Origin: a virus
Strand: one strand, 5' to 3'
Virus record (IMG/VR): IMGVR_UViG_3300031722_000035
Location: 1 to 59,582 of that record
DNA: 59,582 nt
The notes beneath the pieces were generated by a model, which saw only the letters and a list, made by a program, of their open reading frames with translations, was not told the origin of the DNA and searched no databases. Made by a program: the position numbers and the translations under genes. Of the stretch, positions 3,080 through 18,432 are shown piece by piece. The number at the start of each line of letters is the position of its first letter. Position 1 is the stretch's first letter.

Positions 3080-3310
3080 GTGCATTCAATACAGCCTCAC
3101 AAAGACCCTTACTACTCAAATGTAGAGGGCCTAGAACTTGTCATCGACGGGCAAATTCAAGCAGTCATCAAGACCAAGGGGTCAGATACAAACTTCATTT
3201 TCGCTTTCCACGGTCCTAAGGACTTGAATACCGCGAGAACCATCGTCATTGGCCTGTTGGACCTGCAGATGCACTTTGATGCAATGGCCCATAAACGTGG
3301 CAAAACATGA
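3080..3310 (+). CDS. Hypothetical protein (76 aa)
   Basis: It starts at GTG 3080, with GGAG at 3068-3071. It is a small alpha/beta-looking protein with the pattern VIDGQIQAVIKTKG and a central FIFAFHGPKDLNTAR. It lies 3 bp downstream of the P1 gene and is probably co-transcribed with it. The 50 nt that follow contain three tandem TAGAA units. Confidence 0.6.
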   Translation: MHSIQPHKDPYYSNVEGLELVIDGQIQAVIKTKGSDTNFIFAFHGPKDLNTARTIVIGLLDLQMHFDAMAHKRGKT

Positions 3311-3910: not shown

Positions 3911-4787
3911 GCCAATGTTGGCTGCCGCCATTAAGGATCTCTCATCCTTGAAGTACCCACTGATTGTCAGCCCAAAGCTGGATGGCATTCGTGCCATGGT
4001 GCAGAATGGAAAGCTGGTTTCTAGGAACCTCAAACCTATTCCGAACAAGTTTACGGCAAGCCTCTTTGGGCCTGAGTGTGAAGGTCTTGATGGTGAGCTC
4101 ATTGTAGGTGATCCTACTGACAAAGATGTTTTCAACACCACGTCTAGTGGCGTTATGAGCCGTGAAGGAGAACCAAATCTTGATTTTCATGTTTTCGACT
4201 CTTTTCACGAGTCGTTAGAGTTTCCAAGACGATTTTCAGAATCTGTGTTTGAAATCAATGATGTGAATCCATTTTGTAAAGTGGTTCCTCATGACTTCTG
4301 CCGTTGCGAAAGAGACCTGCTAGACCATGAAGCTAGGTACCTAGAACAAGGCTATGAAGGTCTCATGATCAGATCTATAGACGGTCTCTACAAGCAAGGC
4401 AGGTCTACTGTCAACCAAGGATGGCTGCTCAAGCTGAAGCGGTTTACTGATGCTGAGGCTGTTATCATTGGTGTTGAAGAAGCTCAGCACAACGGCAACA
4501 TTCTCATCGCCAATGCTCAGGGCCACCTTGAACGATCTTCTAAAAAGGCTGGCCTGAAGCCCATGGGCACTCTTGGTGCGATCAAAGTTCGTGGTATCAA
4601 CGGTGACTTCAAGGGCGTGGAGTTCCATATCGGAACCGGCTTCAACGATGAACAGCGCACTCAACTTTGGTCTGATAAAGACCTCATCGGAAAAATCGTA
4701 ACCTTCAAATATTTTCCAATAGGGTGCGTAGAAGCTCCACGCTTTCCCGTCTTCAAAGGTCTCCGTAGCAAGGAGGACATGTCATGA
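3900..4787 (+). CDS. ATP-dependent DNA ligase
   Basis: It seals nicks using ATP during phage replication and repair. Nucleotidyltransferase motifs are visible: motif I KLDGIR with the adenylated Lys26, motif III around DGE (Glu66), motif IV EG in YEGLMIR (residues 153-154) and motif V LLKLK (about 176-180). The C-terminal 110 residues would be the OB fold. At 295 aa it is a minimal phage-type ligase like that of T7. The ATG follows GTAAAGGAG and overlaps the J-domain gene. Its TGA overlaps the next ATG, so it sits inside a coupled operon. Confidence 0.95.
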   Translation: MKFKPMLAAAIKDLSSLKYPLIVSPKLDGIRAMVQNGKLVSRNLKPIPNKFTASLFGPECEGLDGELIVGDPTDKDVFNTTSSGVMSREGEPNLDFHVFDSFHESLEFPRRFSESVFEINDVNPFCKVVPHDFCRCERDLLDHEARYLEQGYEGLMIRSIDGLYKQGRSTVNQGWLLKLKRFTDAEAVIIGVEEAQHNGNILIANAQGHLERSSKKAGLKPMGTLGAIKVRGINGDFKGVEFHIGTGFNDEQRTQLWSDKDLIGKIVTFKYFPIGCVEAPRFPVFKGLRSKEDMS

Positions 4788-11439: not shown

Positions 11440-11741
11440 GAGACCTTGAAGTTGACGAGGAGGCCAAGTTTGTCCGGGAGTGCTGGAAGCACTGGAGCCT
11501 CAAGGTCAGTAAGTTTGAAATACCAGGCGACACTGGGTACCCAGACAGAATTATCTGGATGCCAGGAGGTCGCCCGATCTTCTTTGAGTTCAAACGTGAA
11601 GGCTACGAGCCAAGCCTAAAGCAGTCAGTAATTCACGCCGAACTCTGTCTCCTAGGTTACCAAGTCGAGGTACATACAAATGCAGATAGAGCTCTTCAAT
11701 CGCTCGCCCGCGCCGTGGAAGCAGCGCTTAATATAAAATAG
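11436..11741 (+). CDS. VRR-NUC domain nuclease
   Basis: The 101-aa protein starts at a GTG overlapping the preceding TGA. It has the VRR-NUC core: GDTGYPDRIIW, then a strand with FFEFKREG (Glu-x-Lys), then PSLKQSV. These give the PD-(D/E)XK active site. Stand-alone phage VRR-NUC proteins are thought to cut branched DNA (Holliday-junction-like). It sits in a three-nuclease cluster with the Cas4-like and DEDD enzymes. Confidence 0.88.
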   Translation: MRDLEVDEEAKFVRECWKHWSLKVSKFEIPGDTGYPDRIIWMPGGRPIFFEFKREGYEPSLKQSVIHAELCLLGYQVEVHTNADRALQSLARAVEAALNIK

Positions 11742-12282: not shown

Positions 12283-13780
12283 ATGGAGATGACCCTGTTC
12301 AGGGTCGAGAAACCCCAGCCTTGGAATCCTCACGGGTTTCAACGCAAGGCCATCAAGTTCTTGTTAGAACATGGTGCGGCTGGGTTATTTCTCGACCCTG
12401 GCTAGTGAAGGTTTAGGAAAAACCTCTATCACGCTAGCCGCTATAAAATTGATGCTTAAGGCGAAAGTCGAAAGCAAGGTCTTGGTCATCGCTCCGTTGC
12501 GCGTAGCGCACAGCACGTGGCCGGGTGAAGCAGCGAAATGGCTGGACTTCGCTGGACTTAGAATTGTGGTTTTGCACGGGCCAAACAAGGACGAGTTGCT
12601 GAAGCAGGATGCTGACATCTACGTCATCAACCCAGGTGGACTCGATTGGCTACTTGGAGTCACCAAGGCCAAGTCGATAAGGACTGGCAAGAACGCTGTC
12701 TCAGTCGACATGAAGAGGTTCAAGAAGCTGGGGTTTGGGACTCTGGTCATCGATGAACTGACCGCCTTCAAGAACCACCAGTCTGACCGGTTCAAAGCCA
12801 TGAAGCAGGTCATTGGCCTATTCCAACGTCGCTGGGGTCTTACTGGATCACCGGCAGCTAACGGGCTTCTCCAGCTATTTGGCCAAATGTACATGTTAGA
12901 CCAAGGTAGAAGTCTTGGACAGTATGTGACTCACTACCAGAAGACTTACTTCACTCCAGCCTACTCTGGGTTTGGTTGGGATATCAAGCCAGGCGGTGAA
13001 GAGCTCATCTACGAGAGAATCAACCCATTGGTGCTCAGAATGGCAGCCAAGGATTACTTGGAAATGCCTCAGCTGATAGAGAATTTGATCCGCGTGAAGA
13101 TGCCACCAGCCGCCTTGAAGGCCTATCTGAGTGTTGAGGATGACCTCGTGGCCATGGTCGAGACCGGCAAGATTGTGGCCAAAAACACCGGTGTCGCTAT
13201 GGGCAAGTGCCGTCAGATGGCGTCCGGTGGAGTCTTTTTGACGCCAGATGTAGAAGTGTTGTTTAAGCCAGCTAAGACCAAGCGCGAGTGGGTGGAACTC
13301 CATACAGAGAAGGTGGAAGCTCTGGAAGTCTTGATAGAAGAACTTCAAGGGTCTCCACTTCTAGTTGCCTACGAGTTTAGCCACGAGGCTGAGAGGCTCA
13401 GGAAGGCGTTACCAGATGCAGTCTTTGCCGCTGACCATGCTGCTAAGGACTTCAAGAAACTGGAAGACCGTTGGAACAAAGGTGAAATTCCAGTCCTCTT
13501 TGCCCAAGCACAGAGTCTTAGCCATGGGTTGAACCTCCAAGAGGCTGGAAACAACGTGGCGTGGTTCACCCTGACTTGGGACGGAGAGGTCTACGAGCAG
13601 TTCATTAGGCGCGTTCTCAGGCAGGGTAATAAGAGCAAACGTGTCTTTGTTCACGTATTCTTGTGCGACAACACAGTGGACCTATATGTTTGGAACAGCC
13701 TGACTGCTAAGGGCAAAACTCAAAATGCTTTGTTTGATGGTTTGAAGAATCTGGCAAAATCACGCCACCAAAAATCATAG
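12283..13780 (+). CDS. SNF2/DEAD-type helicase, interrupted inside Walker A
   Basis: Helicase motifs follow in order: GLGKTS (motif I), LVIDELTAFK (motif II), WGLTGSP (motif III) and, near the end, QFIRRVLRQGN (motif VI). The natural N-terminus starts at ATG 12283 after TAGGAAAT and reads through GFQRKAIKFLLEHG to LFLDPG (40 codons, ending GGC at 12400-12402). It then meets TAG TGA (12403-12408). The frame of LGKTS resumes at 12413, after a GGT at 12410-12412. Removing 10 nt restores the canonical LDPGLGKT. Without recoding, translation could only begin at ATG 12371 (469 aa), losing the Q-motif region. See the findings. Confidence 0.85.
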
Positions 13781-16562: not shown

Positions 16563-17365
16563 ATGCTAACTGGCTTGTAACGCTTCACTCAATACTGACC
16601 ACTGGTTCAATGGTCAGTCCAAGGGGCAAGCACACTCTGGAGATACCACAGCACACGGTGCGTGTCCCCATGCGCAGACCTGTTCTGACTGTGACTGAGC
16701 GCAAGCTCAGTTACCAGTTCATGGCAGCTGAAGCCTATTGGATCCTGTCCGGTGATGAGACAGTTGAAGGCATTGCCACGTGGAACCAACGGATCCACGC
16801 GTTTAGTGACGATGGCAAGATCTTCTTCGGTGCCTATGGTCCTAAAATCTCTGATCAGCTTGACTACGTGGTTACCAAACTGGCTGAGGATCAATTTTCG
16901 CGTCAAGCTGGTCTGACTATCTGGCGTGAAAAACCAAAACGGACGAAGGATGTTCCATGCACGGTGGCTATCTTTGCCTTTATCCGTGGAGACAAGTTGA
17001 ACCTGTCTGTATATATGAGATCATCTGATGTGTGGCTTGGTTTGCCATATGACGTTTTCAACTTCAGCATGTTGGCTCACTTGATCTGCTGCCGTCTCCA
17101 CGCCCAGAAGGGCATCCTCGTCTCCCCAGGCACTTTGTACCTTACGGCAGCATCGAGTCACCTGTACGAAGAGCAGTGGGCTCAGGCCAAAGAATTGACT
17201 ATAGCTGCTATGGTGCCATCAGTTCTTGGCTTGTCACCCCCTTCAGATGCGGCTCAACCTGACACTCCTGAAGTTCTTTACAAGGATGAAGCTGAGTTGA
17301 TGTTGACTCTCAAGGTTCTCCGTGACACGAAGCCTGGTGATGACCTCCGTTGGTGGTCAAAATGA
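16559..17365 (+). CDS. Thymidylate synthase-family enzyme; dCMP hydroxymethylase-like specificity residue
   Basis: The 268-aa protein starts at GTG 16559 after AAGGAG, coupled to the previous stop. The catalytic Cys is in VPCTVAIFAF (Cys134). The phosphate-binding Arg and following loop read MRSSDVWLGLPYDVFNF (Arg154 to Phe168). Aligned without gaps to Escherichia coli ThyA, the base-reading Asn177 corresponds to Asp165 here. Asn-to-Asp at this site is known to favour dCMP and is found in T4 dCMP hydroxymethylase. The enzyme may therefore make dTMP or 5-hydroxymethyl-dCMP. A dCMP deaminase lies immediately downstream, which argues that dUMP is also made. Confidence 0.85.
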   Translation: MNANWLVTLHSILTTGSMVSPRGKHTLEIPQHTVRVPMRRPVLTVTERKLSYQFMAAEAYWILSGDETVEGIATWNQRIHAFSDDGKIFFGAYGPKISDQLDYVVTKLAEDQFSRQAGLTIWREKPKRTKDVPCTVAIFAFIRGDKLNLSVYMRSSDVWLGLPYDVFNFSMLAHLICCRLHAQKGILVSPGTLYLTAASSHLYEEQWAQAKELTIAAMVPSVLGLSPPSDAAQPDTPEVLYKDEAELMLTLKVLRDTKPGDDLRWWSK

Positions 17366-18432
17366 AGACAGTTGTAGCGGGCGGAGAGTATAACCTGAAC
17401 AAAGTGGTTGAAGACCTTGGAGACAATTACTTCTTAGTGAAGTGTACTGGGTGCGGGTTAGAGCGCCGAGTCTGGAAATACAACGTGCTTCGTGGGGTTG
17501 GCTGCCGCAAATGCAGTCAAAGGAATTTTGAGGCCCCAGTTACCATAGATGGCAGGCAAACCAAGGAGTATACTGCCTGGGCGAGTATGGTGGCTCGCTG
17601 CCAAGTGTCTATGCCCTCATGGAAAGAACGGTTCTCAGAAACTAGGTACCCGGGCCTAGAAGTAGAACCTTCTTGGCTAGGACCTGATGGCTACACCGAG
17701 TTTTACAAAGCCGTCGGCCCGGCATTTGAAGGGGCAGTTCTAGACCGGACTGACAACGACAAGGGTTACGTAGTTGGAAATGTTAAATGGGTAACTGTCC
17801 AGCAGTCTAATGTCAACAAGTCCAATACTCATTGGGTAACTGCATTTGGGTTGACAAAGACTTTGCAGGAATGGGCCGATGATCTAGGCATTAGCTCCAC
17901 GGGGCTAAATCTACGCCTGAAGGCCGGGTACTCACCAGAAGATGCCGTTAGTGTTAGGCCGCAGGGAATCCGGTCCTCTAGTGACGAGTATTTTATGTCG
18001 ATCGCAGTTAGAATAGCCGGGCGCTCTACGTGTAGTCGTAGAGCTGTCGGGTGTGTATTGACTGACGCTAGGCGCCATGTGCAATCTACCGGGTACAACG
18101 GGGTACCACCAGGTCTTCCTCATTGCCACGGGGGAGCGAAATGCGCAGGTTCTATGGCTAAGAGTGGGGAAGGGCTAGACCTCTGCATGTCTAGCCATGC
18201 AGAGCAAAGCGCCCTCTTACAATGTAAAGACGTCTACACCATTGACGCCGCTTATGTGACTGCCAGTCCATGTATGACCTGTACGAAACTTCTGCTGAAT
18301 ACATCATGCAAGCGCATCGTATACCTGGAGGAATATCCTCACACGGAGGCCAGAGACCTTTGGCTGAGGTCAGGTCGTGAGTGGATTAAACTGGACTTCA
18401 AATACACTGTTACAGGGTTCGACATGCTATAA
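17362..18432 (+). CDS. HNH-type homing nuclease fused to dCMP deaminase
   Basis: The ATG at 17362 forms an ATGA overlap with the previous gene. Residues about 1-60 hold a zinc ribbon (CTGCG, CRKC). Residues 70-205 resemble phage homing nucleases (LDRTDNDKGYVVGNVKWV, then QSNVNKS, then a LQEWADDLGIS helix-turn-helix). From about residue 208 a complete deoxycytidylate deaminase begins at DEYFMSIA: CSRRAVGCVL, TGYNGVP, zinc ligands in HAEQSALL and SPCMTCTKLL. The reading frame is unbroken across the junction. The deaminase makes dUMP for the TS-fold enzyme. Confidence 0.9.
   Translation: MKTVVAGGEYNLNKVVEDLGDNYFLVKCTGCGLERRVWKYNVLRGVGCRKCSQRNFEAPVTIDGRQTKEYTAWASMVARCQVSMPSWKERFSETRYPGLEVEPSWLGPDGYTEFYKAVGPAFEGAVLDRTDNDKGYVVGNVKWVTVQQSNVNKSNTHWVTAFGLTKTLQEWADDLGISSTGLNLRLKAGYSPEDAVSVRPQGIRSSSDEYFMSIAVRIAGRSTCSRRAVGCVLTDARRHVQSTGYNGVPPGLPHCHGGAKCAGSMAKSGEGLDLCMSSHAEQSALLQCKDVYTIDAAYVTASPCMTCTKLLLNTSCKRIVYLEEYPHTEARDLWLRSGREWIKLDFKYTVTGFDML

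Follow-up and report, generated by a model that had tools for sequence, protein, structure and literature searches.

We report an interruption within the Walker A motif of a phage helicase gene. It is very probably the work of a mobile HNH homing-endonuclease cassette that targets this region, with the gene kept working by programmed ribosomal bypassing. The window, which is the whole stretch of DNA that was analysed, comprises 59,582 nt of an IMG/VR virus record (IMGVR_UViG_3300031722_000035). In it, the ATG at 12283 opens the frame MEMTLFRVEKPQPWNPHGFQRKAIKFLLEHGAAGLFLDPG, the last codon of which is GGC 12400-12402. This codon is directly followed by TAG (12403-12405) and TGA (12406-12408). 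The next glycine codon, GGT 12410-12412, precedes TTA GGA AAA ACC, which encodes LGKT in a frame that lies one over from that of ATG 12283 and is open to 13780. The long ORF was assigned to the SNF2-type SF2 helicases (Pfam SNF2-rel_dom; PHROG 62). When 10 nt were omitted from the window sequence, LDPGLGKT was restored. On re-reading the sequence, the bases and coordinates of this 10-nt interruption with tandem stops agreed with those of an earlier note on this DNA. That note had ranked a T4-like bypass first among several explanations, and the relatives described below point the same way. The analysis adds an mRNA helix, a displaced original helicase start at 11680 and the recurrence of the arrangement with hops of 8, 9 and 10 nt. 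The features are listed in Table 1.

Table 1. Features of the interrupted helicase locus in the window.
Feature	Position	Strand	Basis
Putative vestigial original helicase start, MQIELFNRSPAPWKQRLI then stop, within the end of a VRR-NUC-like ORF	11680..11736	+	predicted from comparison
Remnant of an HNH-NUMOD3 homing endonuclease gene, with two frameshifts and no start codon	11777..12281	+	73%, 73% and 87% identity to the HNH of L001 over three frames
Rewritten helicase 5' end, 40 codons to take-off Gly GGC 12400-12402	12283..12402	+	pN/pS 0.22 in this frame against L001
Lower helix, 5' arm, pairs with 12388-12401	12299..12312	+	
Upper helix, 5' arm, partner of 12378-12384; preserved in L001 by two compensatory double changes	12314..12320	+	
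Upper helix, 3' arm	12378..12384	+	
Lower helix, 3' arm, reaching as far as the second base of the take-off codon	12388..12401	+	
Gap TAGTGAA between the two Gly codons, beginning with the stop UAG	12403..12409	+	sequence
Putative landing codon GGT, with decoding predicted to continue from TTA 12413	12410..12412	+	predicted
Remainder of SNF2-family (SF2) helicase, LGKTSITL..., open to stop	12413..13780	+	pN/pS 0.14

The helicase is interrupted at the same Walker A codon in five metagenomic phage genomes, namely the window and L001, L053, L133 and L141, all of which are known only as uncultivated virus contigs. Their gene order is the same: an HNH gene, the helicase start, 40-42 codons ending in ...LDPG, then a stop and a short gap, and after a further Gly the residues LGKT (MRKT in L053). 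The take-off Gly is followed by the stop and 2-4 further bases before the landing Gly (Table 2). The stop is UAG in four phages and UGA in L141, and the matched landing codon, which is GGC or GGU in 5/5, would rejoin the protein that is standard for the family. Since the predicted hops are of 10, 9 and 8 nt, all three reading frames are represented. The uninterrupted relatives have a single Gly at this site. The closest interrupted relative, L001 (IMGVR_UViG_3300045747_000156), encodes a helicase protein 87% identical to that of the window (1061/1365 nt, 78%, in the helicase body). In the alignment, it carried the same 10 nt at the same codon and had an intact HNH gene upstream. L002, which comes from the same metagenome as L001, and L003 have neither the HNH gene nor the insert. 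The occurrence of a cassette-bearing and a cassette-free genome in one metagenome is as expected for a mobile element. Because the same insert is present in L001 and analogous inserts at the same codon are present in L053, L133 and L141, a sequencing or assembly error, which had been a concern, is very unlikely as its cause.

Table 2. Sequences at the interruption in the five phages, with the predicted hops.
Phage	Take-off codon, gap, landing codon	Hop	Frame change	Remark
Window	GGC-TAGTGAA-GGT	10 nt	+1	
L001	GGT-TAGTGAA-GGT	10 nt	+1	
L053	GGC-TAGTTGA-GGC	10 nt	+1	LDPG-MRKT
L133	GGT-TAGTT-GGC	8 nt	-1	
L141	GGC-TGAGTA-GGC	9 nt	0	in-frame insert holding TGA

In the five phages, every possible +/-1 or +/-2 shift from the take-off codon was checked for stops. 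A programmed +1 (or -2) frameshift at GGC-UAG, which the earlier note had listed as an option, would add SEG in the window and give LDPGSEGLGKT. The +1 frame is indeed open from take-off to landing in the window and in L001, and for these two taken alone such a shift is also possible. It fails, however, in L053, where the +1 and -2 shifts leading into the landing frame hit UGA directly before the landing codon, and in L141, where every +/-1 or +/-2 shift runs into a stop. Moreover, the opposite frame would be needed in L133 and no frame change in L141, the tRNA-Gly anticodon does not fully re-pair on GCU or GUU by the established pairing rules, and the product would have three extra residues in the P-loop. 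Frameshifting is thus an improbable account of the arrangement. GGC and GGU are decoded by one tRNA-Gly according to established rules. Judged from the sequences, Gly-to-Gly hopping is the only single mechanism that would yield a complete Walker A motif in 5/5.

Homing nucleases are known to yield split products (PMC2988022). By analogy with the genes-in-pieces nrdA of phage Aeh1, a 40-residue peptide might assemble with a helicase whose translation restarts downstream, in the window at ATG 12371. An ATG lies 13 codons before the landing Gly in the window and in L001. In L053, AUG is the codon right after the landing Gly, where decoding would resume, and its Walker A contains Arg (GMRKT). We regard a split gene as improbable, however, because L141 has no start codon between the stop and the Walker A lysine. 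Its first one lies 23 codons past the landing Gly, beyond that lysine, so a restart there would lose the P-loop. Restart, an alternative listed in the earlier note, therefore does not hold as a general mechanism. The break would also fall within the P-loop, the matched Gly codons and the helix would be left unexplained, and the restart frame showed no purifying selection (pN/pS 0.99 for 12371-12409 vs 0.12 for the overlapping frame-0 stretch, with four changes each). A further explanation assumes different recoding in each phage (readthrough in L141, frameshift or restart elsewhere), the helix serving for translation control of a nuclease-helicase operon. UGA readthrough would preserve the frame in L141, for which alone it is possible, and coupling is plausible as the HNH and helicase genes overlap or abut. 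This would demand a separate mechanism for each phage despite the shared codon position, Gly-stop-Gly order and helix, and we consider it highly improbable. Phage-encoded suppressor or Gly tRNAs were rejected, as ARAGORN found no tRNA genes in the window.

The comparison of the window with L001 also bears on whether the helicase is functional. For the 5' 40 codons, pN/pS was 0.22 in frame 0, and 0.73 and 1.15 in the other two frames. For codons 14-31 of this 5' ORF it was 0.17, and for the helicase body it was 0.14. These values indicate that purifying selection acts on the 5' 40 codons as read in the frame ending at the stop. Constraint on both halves indirectly supports a single protein made from the two ORFs. 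Near-unchanged blocks were seen at the start (34/34), before the take-off codon (20/21) and over the gap (27/28), with 49/66 in the stretch between. A dead helicase with the cassette as a scar, the knock-out of the earlier note, could account for the two stop codons in the window and for the decayed state of its HNH gene. It is extremely unlikely, however, given that the interruption is kept in divergent phages, that both halves are under purifying selection and that the RNA helix covaries.

The mRNA before the take-off codon can form a long two-part helix in the window (Table 1). The compensatory double changes of L001 keep the upper helix even though they substitute amino acids (Q to R, P to L). 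Helices of the same plan, made from different sequences, are present in L053, L133 and L141, and in all five phages the 3' arm ends on the take-off codon. The arm duplex energies of the five were -40.0, -38.9, -36.4, -35.5 and -32.6 kcal/mol, compared with a best value of -23.3 and a mean of -14.0 kcal/mol in 73 uninterrupted homologues. This comparison with homologues was also used because the whole-region folding energy was not exceptional in the two G+C-rich cases (L053, L141). Against synonymous recoding of the same protein, the values were extreme in the window (0/5000), L001 (0/5000) and L133 (6/5000), and unexceptional in the G+C-rich L053 (324/5000) and L141 (446/5000). As MAFFT failed to align the helix arms, they were aligned by hand for the covariation analysis. 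With these hand-picked arms, 96.6% of the cells were paired and 8/19 pairs were changed on both sides, a count that leans towards structure because the alignment was made for that structure. The covariation score on the same arms was reached by 0/500 shuffles, and when the registers were slid the paired cells fell to about 20-52%. No KKYK-like nascent-peptide motif was recognised by eye in the 40-42 codons before the gap. The gap of 5-7 nt is too short for an in-gap take-off stem-loop of the T4 type. In the window, a possible 5-bp hairpin enclosing the landing codon (GGTTTAGGAAAAACC, 12410-12424) was seen by eye, which recalls the 3' stem-loop of T4.

The HNH gene lies directly upstream of the helicase in 5/5 phages, with the helicase start codon at or overlapping its end. 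The copy in the window is a remnant; its description in the earlier note as a decayed gene was borne out by comparison with the intact homologue of L001 (Table 1). Intact homologues occupy the equivalent place in L001, L133 and L141. Their proteins are ~50% identical and have a C-terminal repeat in common (Pfam NUMOD3 in L001, where HNH_3 is also present). The nuclease upstream of the helicase in L053 is of a different HNH type. Thus an HNH gene adjoins each interrupted target, with NUMOD3 outside L053, and the target is uninterrupted in L002 and L003, where the nuclease is absent. These two phages start the helicase (MQIELFK...) at the place equivalent to 11680 of the window. On the minus strand of L133, a remnant of the original helicase 5' end (MSVPQTWTPRPYQETSLEWLIEKP...) precedes the HNH gene at 4432-4509 of the reverse complement, and it marks the left edge of the cassette. 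The vestige at window 11680 is similar to this remnant. Over the compared stretch, the L133 copy after the HNH gene and the remnant are identical at 14/19 protein positions and at only 37/57 DNA positions. Since L133 and the window retain old helicase starts before the HNH gene, the cassette seems to supply the 5' end of the target gene in a version of its own. An intron was sought as well; no Rfam family reached the gathering score in the window, L001, L002 or L003, and a group I or II intron was rejected for lack of an Rfam match and for the size of the insert, which is only 8-10 nt. Elsewhere in the window, a 360-aa ORF at 17350-18432 (+) matches an HNH endonuclease over residues 69-206 and a dCMP deaminase over residues 204-351. 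It looks like an in-frame fusion of an HNH gene to a deaminase and is possibly a further nuclease insertion at a metabolic gene.

In the proposed mechanism, the cassette would have three components: the gene for the HNH nuclease, a rewritten second copy of the helicase 5' end that has its own start, and a few non-coding nucleotides inserted at the target. Translation of the helicase would start at ATG 12283 and run for 40 codons. Once GGC 12400-12402 occupies the P site and UAG the A site, the peptidyl-tRNA would release its codon, slide 10 nt and re-pair with GGU 12410-12412, and decoding would resume at UUA to give LDPGLGKT. The helix 12299-12320/12378-12401 may melt under the passing ribosome and re-form behind it, and the re-formed helix may stall the ribosome and push it forward, as the zipper hypothesis for the 5' stem-loop of T4 has it. 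The nuclease would be expected to cleave the uninterrupted site; a gene with the insert and a rewritten 5' end would in addition be shielded from it. More broadly, the five phages probably represent a natural home-and-rescue family, in which the HNH nuclease attacks the helicase gene where its codons are most conserved, carries a rewritten rescue 5' end and marks its own copy with an 8-, 9- or 10-nt hop insert, the hop being directed by one compact hairpin signal and independent of frame.

The distribution of the interruption is patchy. Nearly all of 80 surveyed helicase loci read straight through at this site; among them, L010 was L001 again, L032 was a partial copy without the region, and L053 was a new case, 41% identical to L003 in the helicase and with a 10-nt insert at the same codon. 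As a separate observation, the uninterrupted helicase of L016 (about 3105-3125) has LDPGLRKT in place of LDPGLGKT, like the Arg in the predicted hop product of L053. Pattern scans of IMG/VR gave L001, L053 and L133 (8-nt insert), the last by a gapped pattern; other matches were terminase-like Trp codons or chance. L141 (9-nt insert) was found by a scan with HNH alignment. Two matches in a genome-collection scan were both due to chance, and a search for relatives of L053 recovered that phage and otherwise uninterrupted helicases only. HNH relatives in the isolated phages PAE1, slur01 and Pocitis76 lie beside photolyase, queuine-related and SSB genes, not beside a helicase. Among the plasmid matches listed for the HNH protein, coverage was only partial. 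A generic screen for a short ORF, a matched codon and a long ORF downstream of 100 HNH genes recovered the known cases; its other rows were weak or overlapping starts, and L188, on close look, was apparently chance. The search patterns were limited and may miss members with other gap lengths or codons, so that five phages is a minimum count. A helicase tree of 72 sequences implied at least three gains or losses for the five phages, the bootstrap not being settled and L133 sitting on a long branch.

To our knowledge, ribosome hopping in phages is firmly established for one T4 gene only. In T4 gene 60, translation halts after 46 codons at a GGA codon, UAG being in the A site, and the ribosome then slides 50 nt along the mRNA to land on a second GGA. 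Two stem-loops, one on the 5' side and one at take-off, re-form behind it, and landing is aided by a 3' stem-loop (PMC11194080, PMC5009743). The mobA HNH gene interrupts the same T4 topoisomerase gene (PMC2988022). The phages studied here resemble gene 60 in the Gly take-off, the UAG in the A site (four of five), the matched landing codon and the adjoining mobile nuclease (PMC5009743, PMC11194080, PMC2988022). They differ from it in a gap of 5-7 nt (hop 8, 9 or 10 nt) in place of 50 nt, in GGY-GGY instead of GGA-GGA codons, and in one long 5' hairpin ending on the take-off codon, where gene 60 has a take-off stem-loop reaching into the gap and a KKYK nascent-peptide signal. Here the gene is an SNF2-type helicase, interrupted in several lineages with several hop lengths, and a rewritten target 5' end comes after the nuclease gene. 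Because of the short gap, the GGY codons and the hairpin in place of an in-gap stem-loop, the helicase case is filed as a candidate variant of programmed bypassing and not as a member of the gene 60 type.

Unlike the phage helicases, the byp elements of Magnusiomyces capitatus are mitochondrial, occupy 81 sites and are described as independent of mRNA context, and we know of no nuclease gene beside each site. They are alike in being short inserts in coding genes that are skipped by ribosomes (PMC5009743). The Streptomyces phage Hau3 terminase and the mycobacteriophage Corndog tape-measure gene are also candidate bypasses in phage genes, the latter with an HNH gene inserted next to it (PMC5009743, PMC4351075). 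They are other genes, however; Corndog could use an ACG start instead, the Hau3 case is linked to a UUA codon, and the Gly-stop-Gly layout is not reported for either. In phage Aeh1, mobE is likewise a homing nuclease inserted in a critical region of its target, nrdA (PMC2988022), but that gene is left as two separately translated pieces, whereas here the sequence favours one joined product. No report of bypass in a phage helicase was found among the open-literature titles and abstracts listed, a coverage outside which most subscription papers lie. According to a 2016 review, counterparts of gene 60 have long been presumed, perhaps with shorter distances and matched codons, and few uses are known (PMC5009743). 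By sequence, the five phages appear to be such counterparts. If the home-and-rescue reading is true, they would constitute a second class of programmed bypass in phages, one that differs in mechanism and was acquired on several occasions. Their natural variants (three hop lengths, a small signal and uninterrupted alleles) make the programming of short, frame-independent hops, and the question of whether a 5' hairpin suffices, directly testable. With bypass tied more than once to the spread of homing nucleases, the T4 case would cease to be a single accident.
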